A stretch of DNA of 64,000 nucleotides from Mucilaginibacter rubeus. Lineage in GTDB: Bacteria; Bacteroidota; Bacteroidia; Sphingobacteriales; Sphingobacteriaceae. Both the position numbers and the translations under genes were made by a program. This document shows, piece after piece, positions 49,538 through 52,968 of this stretch. How positions within the stretch are numbered: the first letter of the stretch is position 1; each line of letters begins with the position of its first letter. The notes beneath the pieces are model-generated. The model had not been told where the DNA came from, did not search any database, and was given only the letters and a program-made list of their open reading frames with translations. The stretch is from positions 1 to 64,000 of the forward strand of contig NZ_BMKD01000001.1 of the NCBI RefSeq assembly GCF_014643835.1, given 5' to 3'.

Positions 49538-50245
49538 ATGTCTATTCAACAAATCAGCATACCTAAGCCCTGCCACGAGCAATGGTCACAGATGGTACCC
49601 GCTAACAGCGGTCGTTATTGTTATCACTGCTGCAAAACGGTTATCGATTTTACGGTAATGAGCAATGACGAGATCATTAAACTTCTTGCGGCAAAGGATA
49701 ATGTTTGCGGCAGATTTGGCCAAATGCAGCTGATTGAAATTAATGCGGGTATTGGCGCAAATAAAAAGCGATCCTTATCATGGATTGGTATCCTGACAGC
49801 TGCAATAATAAGCTTAACCCGGCTTGAAAAAGCTGAAGCCAAAACCAGGCACAGCCTTGAGCAGGGAGAGTTTCAACGTAAAAGCAATTTGCTCATACCT
49901 GTGCCTACCGGTGTTCAAATATTAGTAAAAGGCCTTGTAACCGAAAAAGGGACTAATGTTCCGATTCCCGGCGCTACAGTCCGTTGTAAAAACGGTGAAA
50001 GTGCAAGCACTGATGTTGATGGCGAATTTAAGTTTTTGGAACTTTCGGAGACAGATACCCTTGTTGTTGGCTTTATCGGTTTTAAGACACAGGAAATAAG
50101 GCTTGCCGACATAGCTGACAGGTCGCAAATAAAAATAGAATTAGAGCCGGAACCGCTAACTGAACAATTTGTTGTGGTAGGAGGTGTATTTGTGCGCCAT
50201 TCTTTTATTCATCGCCTGTGGCATAAAATAAAAAACATATTTTAG
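49538..50245 (+). CDS. membrane protein with Cys-rich N-terminal module and CarboxypepD_reg domain
   Basis: 235 residues. A conserved-looking N-terminal module (1-60) reads PCHEQWSQM, GRYCYHCCKTVIDFT and VCGRF, with C12, C28, C31, C32 and C57 as possible metal or thiol ligands. A membrane helix follows (about 82-97), then a CarboxypepD_reg-like beta-sandwich (about 125-200; GLVTEKGTNVPIPGATV). Topology suggests the Cys module is cytosolic and the sandwich periplasmic. I have seen this arrangement in Bacteroidota proteins but know no function. Confidence 0.75.
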   Translation: MSIQQISIPKPCHEQWSQMVPANSGRYCYHCCKTVIDFTVMSNDEIIKLLAAKDNVCGRFGQMQLIEINAGIGANKKRSLSWIGILTAAIISLTRLEKAEAKTRHSLEQGEFQRKSNLLIPVPTGVQILVKGLVTEKGTNVPIPGATVRCKNGESASTDVDGEFKFLELSETDTLVVGFIGFKTQEIRLADIADRSQIKIELEPEPLTEQFVVVGGVFVRHSFIHRLWHKIKNIF

Positions 50246-50267: not shown

Positions 50268-51020
50268 TTGCACTTTCCTGTAAATATACCTTTAGGCCGG
50301 TCATCCATCCCCGTACATTTTATTTGCGAGACACTCGCGTACTTTTTAGGTTACCGGTATTATGCCTGGTTACGCAAACATTCGGCCGATAAGATCAGTA
50401 CTGAACACAGGCTCATCATCTTTATAGGTGCGGCGGCAGGCGCATTTATCGGTTCGCACCTGGTAGGGATCTTTGAAAATCCACCTTTGCTGTTTTCGCA
50501 TTTCAATATCATCTATATTATGGGCAATAAAACCATAGTGGGCGGTATGCTTGGCGGGTTGATAGGAGTTGAGCTTACCAAGAAGCGGTTAGGTGTAACC
50601 ATGTCATCCGGCGATCTGATGGTTTATCCGCTCATCCTGGCTATGGTTATAGGCCGTACCGGGTGCTTTTTGGCCGGACTGGAGGATGGTACTTATGGCA
50701 TAGCCTCCAACCTGCCATGGGCTATTGATTTTGGCGATGGTATCCACAGGCATCCTACCAATTTGTATGAAATTGTGTTTTGGTTAATGCTTTGGATCGC
50801 GTTGAAACTCATTGAACAAAGCCGCCACTTTGCTGATGGTGCAAGGTTTAAAGTGTTTATGGTAAGCTACCTCGTTTTTAGGTTACTGGTTGAATTTATC
50901 AAGCCCGATTATTTTTTCAGTTTTGGCTTATCGGTAATTCAGTTAGTTTCTATCGCCGGTATTTTGTATTATTATAAAGTATTTTTATCTCCTAAAAAGC
51001 TGTTTGTAAACCATGCCTGA
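50268..51020 (+). CDS. divergent Lgt-like (prolipoprotein diacylglyceryl transferase family) protein
   Basis: 250 residues, seven or so membrane helices, starting at a TTG. Lgt hallmarks: HPTNLYE (162-168), a GGMLGGLIG motif and GRTGCFLAG (R130). Two differences from working Lgt: the His of the canonical GGMSFHGGL loop is missing (here GGMLGGL), and the Asn of GRxGNF is Cys133. So it is probably a diverged member using PG-like lipids in another reaction rather than the housekeeping Lgt. Its stop overlaps the radical SAM start by 8 bases, indicating coupled translation. Confidence 0.82.
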   Translation: MHFPVNIPLGRSSIPVHFICETLAYFLGYRYYAWLRKHSADKISTEHRLIIFIGAAAGAFIGSHLVGIFENPPLLFSHFNIIYIMGNKTIVGGMLGGLIGVELTKKRLGVTMSSGDLMVYPLILAMVIGRTGCFLAGLEDGTYGIASNLPWAIDFGDGIHRHPTNLYEIVFWLMLWIALKLIEQSRHFADGARFKVFMVSYLVFRLLVEFIKPDYFFSFGLSVIQLVSIAGILYYYKVFLSPKKLFVNHA

Positions 51021-52410
51021 ACGCCCGTATATATACTATGATTTTACGTTAAGCATCTGCTCTACCTGCTTACGCCGGGTTGATGCCAAAATTGTTTTTG
51101 AGGATGATAAGGTTTACATGCTTAAAAACTGCCGTCAGCATGGTTTTGAAAAGGTGCTGATCGCCACAGATGTGGAATATTATAAAAACTGCCGCAACTA
51201 TGCCAAGCGGAGTGAGATGCCGCTTAAGTTCAACGCCAAAACACATTATGGCTGCCCTTATGATTGCGGCCTCTGTCAGGATCATGAGCAGCACTCATGC
51301 CTTACCGTCGTTGAAGTAACCGACCGATGTAATTTAAGCTGCCCTACCTGCTACGCCATGTCATCACCCACATATGGCAGGCACCGCACCTTGGCCGAGA
51401 TTGAACAGATGCTGGATGTAGTAGTGGCAAATGAAGGTCAGCCTGATGTGGTGCAGATTAGCGGGGGAGAGCCAACGGTGCACCCGCAGTTCTTCGAGAT
51501 CCTGGATATCGCCAAAACAAAGCCCATTAAACATTTAATGGTGAATACTAATGGTATCCGCATAGCTAAGGACGAAAATTTTGTAAAGCGGCTGGCCACT
51601 TACATGCCTGATTTTGAGATCTACCTGCAATTTGATTCTTTCAAAAAAGAAGCGCTGGTGCAATTGAGAGGAGAAGATCTGCGTGAGGTAAGGCAAAAGG
51701 CCATTGAAAATCTTAACAAGTACAATCTGTCTACAACGTTGGTAGTTACTTTGCAAAAAGGTTTAAATACCGATGAATTAGGGACAATTATTGAATACGC
51801 GTTGAAGCAACCCTGCGTTCGCGGCGTAACCTTCCAGCCTACGCAACAGGCCGGCAGGTTAGAGAATTTTAATGAACAAACCGACCGGTACACCCTAACG
51901 GAAGTACGTAACGCGATACTTGAACAAACCAGTGTATTCAATAAAAACGATCTGATCCCGGTACCCTGCAACCCGGACGCACTCGTAATGGGCTATGCCC
52001 TTAAACTTGAAGGGGAAGTGATTCCGTTAACCCGGATGATAAACCCGGATGACCTGTTAGATAACTCAAAAAATACCATTGTTTATGAAAATGATGAGCG
52101 CCTGAAAGGGCATCTGCTCAATATGTTCAGCACCGGTAATTCGGTTGATAAAGCTAAAGAACACCTGCACTCGTTGTTATGCTGCCTGCCTGAAATTGAC
52201 GCGCCAAGTTTAAGCTATGATAACCTGTTCAGGGTGATCATTATGCAATTTATAGATGCGCAAAATTTTGATGTTCGGGCTATCAAAAAATCATGTGTAC
52301 ACATCGTAAATAAAGATATGCAGATCATCCCTTTTGAAACGATGAACATTTTTTACAGAGATGATAAGCGGGAATATCTGGAACAATTAAGAGGAGAAAT
52401 TTTGGTATGA
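51013..52410 (+). CDS. radical SAM enzyme of the MJ0619/Tes type
   Basis: 465 residues. An N-terminal Cys/His module (C16-x-x-C19, C40, H43) is followed by GCPYDCGLC (C81, C85, C88) and the radical SAM CxxxCxxC loop C106-C110-C113 in VTDRCNLSCPTCY. The SAM-binding ISGGEPTVHP lies near 154-163. The cysteine layout, including the GCPxDCGLC block before the radical SAM loop, matches the family containing MJ0619 of Methanocaldococcus, now known as tetraether synthase (Tes), which joins lipid tails. The actual bacterial substrate is unknown. It overlaps the Lgt-like and small membrane genes. Confidence 0.88.
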   Translation: MPERPYIYYDFTLSICSTCLRRVDAKIVFEDDKVYMLKNCRQHGFEKVLIATDVEYYKNCRNYAKRSEMPLKFNAKTHYGCPYDCGLCQDHEQHSCLTVVEVTDRCNLSCPTCYAMSSPTYGRHRTLAEIEQMLDVVVANEGQPDVVQISGGEPTVHPQFFEILDIAKTKPIKHLMVNTNGIRIAKDENFVKRLATYMPDFEIYLQFDSFKKEALVQLRGEDLREVRQKAIENLNKYNLSTTLVVTLQKGLNTDELGTIIEYALKQPCVRGVTFQPTQQAGRLENFNEQTDRYTLTEVRNAILEQTSVFNKNDLIPVPCNPDALVMGYALKLEGEVIPLTRMINPDDLLDNSKNTIVYENDERLKGHLLNMFSTGNSVDKAKEHLHSLLCCLPEIDAPSLSYDNLFRVIIMQFIDAQNFDVRAIKKSCVHIVNKDMQIIPFETMNIFYRDDKREYLEQLRGEILV

Positions 52411-52685
52411 CAGAGGAAGAACAATTACAACCACCCAATCAGCCTCCTGGCAACAAACCCCAAGGTGGAATCAAGATAGTCGGAATTAACCTGGCAGTAT
52501 TTGTTGGTTATACCTTGCTTAGTCTGCTGACCGATGGCGATGTAGTAGCTGGGCTGCTAATGGTTGCCCAGGTGATTGTTTGTATTATACTTTCATTGTA
52601 TTTCCGTAAGTGGAGTTGGTTTTTAGGCGGCTTACTGGTTTTAGTAATTGGTTTTTCAACGTGTGTTGCAATAATAAGGATTTAG
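52407..52685 (+). CDS. small membrane protein, paralogue A
   Basis: 92 residues. A short Pro/Gln-rich N-terminus leads into three predicted helices (KIVGINLAVFVGYTLLS, then a VVAGLLMVAQVIVCII helix, then a WFLGGLLVLVIGF helix). Its ATG overlaps the radical SAM stop in ATGA. It is clearly related to the next gene (same GIN-L-x-V-Y-T pattern and the same GFS-C ending). Unknown function, presumably an accessory of the radical SAM/Lgt-like operon. Confidence 0.75.
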   Translation: MTEEEQLQPPNQPPGNKPQGGIKIVGINLAVFVGYTLLSLLTDGDVVAGLLMVAQVIVCIILSLYFRKWSWFLGGLLVLVIGFSTCVAIIRI

Positions 52686-52704
52686 TATCTCACAAGTTGA
52701 TATA

Positions 52705-52968
52705 ATGGAAACGCAGAAGAAAGACCCCGGTAGCAAAAAAATGATAGTTGTAGGTATCAATCTATCGATATTGGTAGCTTATACCATATATTTCAGATGG
52801 GTTGCTAATGAGGAGCTTATTATATTAGCTGAAGCGATTTTTATTTTTTTGCACGTAGTACTGTGCCTGATATTGGCAATTTTTGCTTTGAGAAAAGAAT
52901 TTTTGTTTAGCGCGCTCGTAGTACTGCTGATCGGTTTTTCGTCATGCTGGATTGTTTTCTCTACTTAG
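52705..52968 (+). CDS. small membrane protein, paralogue B
   Basis: 87 residues, three predicted helices, paralogous to the preceding 92-residue protein: KMIVVGINLSILVAYTIYF aligns with its first helix, and both end with a GFS-containing helix (LLIGFSSCWIVFS). Tandem duplication is the simplest origin. Last gene of the operon; its stop overlaps that of the convergent Ppx/GppA gene in TTAG. Confidence 0.75.
   Translation: METQKKDPGSKKMIVVGINLSILVAYTIYFRWVANEELIILAEAIFIFLHVVLCLILAIFALRKEFLFSALVVLLIGFSSCWIVFST

Follow-up and report, generated by a model that had tools for sequence, protein, structure and literature searches.

The window analysed here, a 64,000-nucleotide stretch of Mucilaginibacter rubeus DNA (contig NZ_BMKD01000001.1, positions 1 to 64,000), contains four consecutive genes on its + strand that we refer to as the cassette. 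The first gene (50268..51020) encodes a 250-amino-acid (aa) membrane protein resembling Lgt, and the second (51013..52410) encodes a 465-aa radical S-adenosylmethionine (SAM) protein that belongs to the MJ0619/Tes/TrsS superfamily, within which it represents a subfamily of its own. The last two genes encode mini-membrane proteins: M1 (52407..52685, 92 aa), which has three hydrophobic stretches according to a crude hydrophobicity scan, the source of all of our helix counts, and M2 (52705..52968, 87 aa), a distant paralogue of M1. Our reading of the open reading frames (ORFs) agrees with a first-pass annotation of this DNA in that the genes are tightly packed, with overlaps of 8 bases and 4 bases followed by a gap of 19 bases. 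The TTG start of the Lgt-like gene agrees with the consensus of its homologues, which opens with MxFP and in which Pro4 is nearly invariant. The same four-gene set is found in genome G001, which has 36% of sampled words in common with the window and whose four proteins are 93, 99, 95 and 95% identical to those of the window. Among the named loci that were fetched, the closest relatives of the radical SAM protein come from Mucilaginibacter and other Sphingobacteriaceae, with 85-86% identity.

We observed that the three components of the cassette, an Lgt-like paralogue, a radical SAM protein with the Tes fold, and one to several mini-proteins, travel together across phyla. The radical SAM gene is present in 23 of 37 sampled genomes of the genus and in 23 of 151 of the family. 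Across 395 genomes of the phylum, 34 have the radical SAM gene at E<=1e-30, 31 of them at E<=1e-100, and the Lgt-like gene is found in 36 at E<=1e-12 and in 32 at E<=1e-30. The Lgt-like gene accompanies the radical SAM gene in 31 of 31 genomes and the reciprocal count is 31 of 32, at thresholds (1e-100 for the radical SAM gene and 1e-30 for the Lgt-like gene) that were chosen after a score gap had been seen, the next matches being at 1.2e-53 and 2.3e-16, respectively. When E<=1e-30 is applied to both genes, the counts are 34 radical SAM genomes, 32 Lgt-like genomes and 31 with both. The three genomes with weaker radical SAM matches (G123, G153 and G358) yielded no Lgt-like match in the 395-genome search; next to the radical SAM gene of G153, however, lies a more distant homologue of Lgt (E 2e-29).

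Gene neighborhoods were read at 66 loci from the genome searches (L001-L066), 63 of which have an Lgt-like gene. The other three are accounted for by G093 and G328, which carry a cassette-type Lgt-like gene on another contig, and by L013, which is cut by the end of its contig. In a scan of named genomes, limited to the best 80 of 566 relatives as ranked by likeness to L075 rather than to the window, 71 loci have an Lgt-like gene and in 69 of the 80 it lies on the same strand within 1.5 kb. These 80 include a Limnohabitans locus, L108, that sits inside the Flavobacterium branch of the radical SAM tree and is probably a mis-binned contig. The co-occurrence and the close spacing bear out the view of the first-pass annotation that the genes form one functional unit, which we regard as almost certain. 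As for conservation of gene order, for which that annotation had asked, the gene set is kept together in Bacteroidota and beyond, but its order differs among loci. We found Lgt-like, radical SAM, mini-protein; Lgt-like, mini-protein, radical SAM; radical SAM, two mini-proteins, Lgt-like; and mini-protein, Lgt-like, radical SAM. Named carriers among the matches listed include Pedobacter, Flavobacterium, Aquimarina, Chitinophaga, Cylindrospermum, Phormidium, Paenibacillus, Fictibacillus, Reyranella, Clostridium and Elusimicrobia, and the cassette also occurs on a Persicobacter plasmid. Some copies are interrupted, whether by decay or by sequencing error: an in-frame stop breaks the radical SAM gene at L011 (G024) and L092 (G588), and the Lgt-like gene of Flavobacterium davisii is split into two ORFs (L100, 5280-5970).

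A second type of cassette has the order radical SAM, ICMT/PEMT-family methyltransferase, DUF4395 protein, Lgt-like, followed by a mini-protein gene in the loci that were read. It is found in bins or genomes named Chlorobaculum, Ignavibacteria, Elusimicrobia, Clostridium, Bacilli, Coriobacteriia and Patescibacteria, and at L099 the methyltransferase and DUF4395 genes are fused. The DUF4395 proteins have Cys-rich ends. Judged by its family, the methyltransferase fits a product that would be a lipid or a lipid-thiol.

The Lgt-like protein of the window matches PF01790 (LGT) with 82.8 bits against a cut-off of 24.9 and has the Lgt fold. It falls short of the three NCBIfam equivalog cut-offs for prolipoprotein diacylglyceryl transferase, with 55.3 bits against 334, 34.1 against 118.9 and 21.6 against 636. 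Relative to E. coli Lgt (5azb), Arg143, Gly154 and Arg239 are retained in 80 of 80 cassette proteins, a tally that, like those given below for radical SAM residues and mini-protein Cys, counts some genomes twice (e.g., L075/L089); Glu202 and Tyr235 are retained in 79 of 80. The two arginines correspond to Arg130 (50655..50657, + strand) and Arg205 (50880..50882, + strand) of the window protein. The loop histidine that had been reported as missing is indeed missing, and generally so: the equivalent of E. coli His103 is Val91 in the window (50538..50540, + strand) and V/M/A/I/L/T in 80/80 cassette proteins, whereas 19 of 19 ordinary Lgts, one duplicate having been removed, have Tyr, His or Phe. 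PMC13251419 names Y, W or F as the substitutes at position 103. A further difference is Lys or Arg at position 100 in 74 of the 80. By contrast, Cys133 in place of Asn146 is no sign of divergence, since 15 of the 19 ordinary Lgts also have Cys there, and PMC13251419 describes distant Lgts in which N146 is replaced by C.

Could the gene simply encode an ordinary Lgt that lies by chance beside an unrelated radical SAM gene? The Pfam score and the fold would be expected of such a protein. However, the cassette proteins form a single clade in the Lgt tree (39 rows, against 21 others), cassette genomes encode an ordinary Lgt besides, and the 31/31 co-occurrence is at odds with chance. We consider this explanation extremely improbable, and ordinary Lgt was rejected as the identity of the protein on the basis of the tree and the residues.

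The radical SAM protein of the window matches PF04055 and the MJ0619-type zinc ribbon PF23545, and its best solved relative by sequence is 7tol (E 9e-65). It shares with Tes/GDGT-MAS MJ0619 (7tol/7tom, NF045702) the fold of the whole protein and three sets of metal-site residues, all on the + strand. The rubredoxin-type site consists of Cys16, Cys19, Cys40 and His43 (51058..51141; Cys in 94/94 and His in 92/94 cassette rows). The GCPYDCGLC block that the first-pass annotation had pointed out (Cys81, Cys85, Cys88; 51253..51276; 93/94) aligns with the Cys residues of the N-terminal auxiliary [4Fe4S] cluster of GDGT-MAS, and CNLSCPTC (Cys106, Cys110, Cys113; 51328..51351) is the radical SAM CX3CX2C motif, present in 94/94 rows and invariant in a 42-sequence alignment.

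That annotation called the protein an enzyme of the MJ0619/Tes type; the evidence speaks against its being MJ0619/Tes itself. The Tes model scores 272.8 bits against a cut-off of 450, and three archaeal Cys on the C-terminal side are missing. Placement in a tree, which had been proposed as a check, sets the protein apart from Tes and Tes-like rows, in outline only, since this quick tree holds one archaeal Tes, zero TrsS rows and two long branches (L076 and L078). From the archaeal set C338, C455, C456, C470 and Met439, whose Cys residues are taken as ligands on the grounds of conservation, the window protein retains only C456 (its Cys428; 52294..52296, + strand) and Met439; across the 94 cassette rows the counts are 13, 1, 94, 1 and 72. 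The position of GDGT-MAS Tyr459, which is constant in 1000 archaeal homologues (PMC9433317), is I/V/F in 94/94 rows. This is a weak criterion, since the Y459F and Y459L variants of GDGT-MAS retain activity. The best NCBIfam match by score is TrsS (NF045646), at 324.7 bits against a cut-off of 490. Of 12 TrsS loci that exceed this cut-off, 8 were read; they have no Lgt-like gene within 4.5 kb, and their neighbors are unlike the cassette. We rejected both Tes and TrsS as names for the protein on the basis of score, residues and context.

Two Bacteroidota loci from the same searches, L077 (7864-9321, G123) and L078 (7107-8582, G358), encode Tes-like radical SAM proteins that score 493.5 and 441.6 bits with the Tes model (cut-off 450) and retain the archaeal C-terminal-side Cys; neither locus has an Lgt-like gene. 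Locus L244 (G780) has two tandem MJ0619-family radical SAM genes in one cluster, with neighbors that we take, from their start peptides, to be ketosynthase, acyl carrier protein, SDR and cysteine-desulfurase lookalikes.

The cassette proteins also have Cys residues of their own. Cys319 (PVPC; 51967..51969, + strand) is present in all cassette rows and aligns with Ser in the M. jannaschii protein, and a Cys390-Cys391 pair (52180..52185, + strand), which lies within the poorly modelled residues 372-396 and may provide ligands, is present in 86% of rows. These residues would be compatible with sulfur chemistry, in which an altered C-terminal cluster would donate sulfur to a lipid chain, as a stopped form of the GDGT-MAS reaction, and the mini-protein Cys would relay a thiol or sulfur. 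The GDGT-MAS reaction passes through a cluster-sulfur-carbon bond, with a sulfur-lipid intermediate (PMC9433317), and the Cys-rich ends of the DUF4395 proteins are consistent with this idea. However, no sulfur-transfer family was found among the few neighbors scanned, a systematic neighbor search not having been made, and we regard the idea as distinctly improbable.

The relationship between M1 and M2 that had been proposed was confirmed by cross-comparison with G001 (E 2e-8 and 5e-8), with 25% identity in the alignment. A TspO match to M1 scored 21.1 bits against a cut-off of 24.0 and was taken as chance. For a broader survey we considered small ORFs of 50-150 aa with at least two hydrophobic stretches beside the cassette enzymes, excluding mini-ORFs that overlap longer ORFs, and searched the final 26 residues of each for a Cys that follows a hydrophobic run and has at least two small residues among the preceding four. 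Such a Cys is present in 99 of 111 small ORFs near the cassette. At least one small ORF has it at 75 of the 81 loci with a qualifying ORF and at 61 of the 66 search loci; 16 of 97 loci, including the non-cassette L077 and L078, have no qualifying small ORF under these filters. The distance between the last Cys and the C-terminus is 3-14 residues in 102 of 109 mini-proteins, and in 57 of 109 this Cys is the only one. In the window, these residues are Cys86 of M1 (52662-52664, + strand) and Cys81 of M2 (52945-52947, + strand), and in an alignment of 20 sequences of the window type only Met1, Asn28, Tyr35 and Cys86 are invariant. A mini-protein at L242 (5948-6244, G699) has a Cys near its C-terminus and a weak B-box zinc-finger match of 19.9 bits, which is below the cut-off.

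The sampled genomes of the genus comprise 23 with a cassette and 14 without; a family model of the mini-proteins was run on 7 and 11 of these, respectively. All 7 cassette genomes gave matches, 16 in total and every one at the cassette, and the 11 genomes without a cassette gave zero. The model also gave zero matches in four cassette genomes from other genera, the mini-proteins there being too different. The number of matches per genome ranges from 1 to 6; the six in G004 are in tandem (L017, C7 18783-20203), and one has internal stops. Since the most constant feature of the mini-proteins is the Cys behind the last helix, the earlier suggestion that they form a dedicated scaffold is weaker than the suggestion that they are a substrate. 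On this sequence evidence, the Cys is probably a modified or working site.

Two other explanations bear on the mini-proteins. The radical SAM enzyme could couple or functionalize the acyl chains of ordinary phospholipids. Phosphatidylglycerol would then be passed on or cleaved by the Lgt-like protein, and the mini-proteins would serve as accessory subunits, with their Cys keeping the complex together. Such a scheme comes close to the view of the first-pass annotation, and it agrees with the GDGT-MAS fold, with the retained arginines of the phosphatidylglycerol site, with the binding of bacterial phospholipids by GDGT-MAS (PMC9433317), and with the proposal in PMC8941075 that bacterial Tes homologues are lipid couplers. 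However, it leaves unexplained both the single constant Cys in otherwise unalike proteins and their varying number per genome, and it has to contend with the loss of the three archaeal Cys; we judge it possible but unlikely. Alternatively, the radical SAM enzyme could modify the mini-protein itself (e.g., by forming a thioether or an oxidized Cys), as in the maturation of ribosomally synthesized and post-translationally modified peptides, with the Lgt-like protein lipidating or handling the product; the result would be a lipopeptide that is either secreted or bound to the membrane. Such a system would be suited by the small ORFs, which diverge fast and vary in number, next to a radical SAM enzyme that keeps its extra metal sites, as well as by the peptide maturases SuiB and SkfB among second-tier structural matches and a rhomboid-family protease gene after the radical SAM gene in G093 (L079, 9418-10053), whose Lgt-like gene is on another contig. 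We consider this rather improbable.

The reading that we favor, although tentatively and at somewhat less than even confidence, is that the cassette is a dedicated lipid-modification system for tiny membrane proteins. From the observed linkage, residues, folds and position of the Cys in the sequence, we infer a topology, a lipidation, an order of steps and a type of coupling. The Lgt-like enzyme, with its phosphatidylglycerol-activating arginines kept and its HGGL region changed, would transfer diacylglyceryl to the mini-protein Cys. The radical SAM enzyme would abstract hydrogen from a lipid chain and couple that chain either with another chain or with some other group. The mini-protein would thereby carry a lipid with a modified chain, which might span the membrane, and in the second type of cassette the methyltransferase and the DUF4395 membrane protein would further process or serve the product. 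We hold it an even call whether the Lgt-like enzyme lipidates the Cys, and whether the radical SAM enzyme acts on the lipid chain seems equally balanced. The earlier proposal of a lipid-active unit stands insofar as these are enzymes of lipid families within one unit; the identification with Tes, the scaffold role and the argument from Cys133 do not.

The last Cys lies 16-21 residues past the last Lys or Arg in 96 of 109 mini-proteins, and the mini-protein stretches contain 317 Lys/Arg versus 60 Asp/Glu, two counts that are without a control and in which each stretch ends in Lys/Arg by construction. The positive-inside rule places positive residues on the inner side of a membrane; if it holds here, the Cys would be on the outward-facing side of the membrane, where Lgt works, in a prolipoprotein-like geometry. 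As in the bacterial lipoprotein pathway, the Cys follows a positive residue and a hydrophobic run. Unlike that pathway, the Cys is near the C-terminus of a protein with at least two hydrophobic stretches, and the cassette has a dedicated Lgt paralogue and a radical SAM partner.

Several observations weigh against a lipidated mini-protein. The main weakness is the requirement of E. coli Lgt for His103: Mao et al. proposed that HGGL contributes to the lipobox-peptide site, and they found H103A/N/Q/R/Y inactive (PMC4728403), so that thiols may not be acceptors of the Lgt-like protein at all. In addition, 80/80 cassette proteins have lost the acid at position 151. An altered acceptor would be the simplest inference from the changes at 103 and 151, the alternative being loss of activity. 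A strict lipobox is mostly absent, with Gly/Ala/Ser at -1 in 44 of 105; in the window M2 has a suitable Ser and M1 an unsuitable Thr. The C-terminal Cys described above is also found in 8 of 53 control ORFs from the same loci, not all of these ORFs being real genes, and it is missing from the small proteins adjacent to the cassette at the alphaproteobacterial loci L132 and L138. Judged by alignment, the C-terminal domain that in GDGT-MAS has the cluster holding the lipid intermediate has other Cys in the cassette proteins, and its residues 372-396 are poorly modelled. With the radical SAM enzyme in the cytosol and the Lgt-like enzyme working at the outer face, the two would have to share a substrate across the membrane. 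Finally, the components do not always coincide: G076 has a cassette-like Lgt with 36% identity (L246, 6653-7498), no radical SAM match in the genome and no fitting mini-protein nearby, and at L141 an Lgt-like gene is missing up to a distance of about 6 kb.

Other candidates and neighbors were considered as well. With PADLOC, a search for anti-phage defence yielded nothing beyond matches of the radical SAM core to viperin models, at 51.0 and 49.2 bits, and this function was rejected. The gene upstream of the cassette (49538-50245) lies 22 bases before the Lgt-like start and encodes a CarboxypepD_reg protein with a Cys/His-rich N-terminal stretch. It is absent at the G001 counterpart, where the Lgt-like gene adjoins a divergent peptidase gene instead, and was rejected as a cassette member. 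Downstream, the last cassette gene meets a convergent Ppx/GppA-family gene, the two stops falling in a four-base overlap (52965-52968), as they do in G001.

Bacterial Tes homologues have been counted before, with 456 reported in PMC8941075 and 281 bacterial metagenome-assembled genomes with homologues in PMC11868695, and they are discussed, without a test, as possible makers of membrane-spanning brGDGT-type lipids. The present finding is larger than that of the first-pass annotation: it is a widespread module with a built-in candidate substrate, uncharacterized as far as the literature searched shows, where no description of the gene set was found among the matches listed. It ties a bacterial subfamily of the Tes fold to an Lgt paralogue and a candidate substrate, and it carries a warning against taking every such homologue as a sign of tetraether lipids. 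Cultured genera are among the carriers, so that the question can be put to experiment. At its fullest, and speculatively, the cassette might represent a new route of protein lipidation in which an Lgt paralogue lipidates a near-C-terminal Cys on the outside and a Tes-type enzyme joins or caps the chain, so that the anchor may span the membrane; in the second type, an ICMT-family enzyme would finish the product, and the route would then correspond, in outline, to the CAAX pathway of eukaryotes. We think this full scheme unlikely as it stands. If the lipidation does take place, however, both its site and its chemistry would be new among lipidated bacterial proteins.

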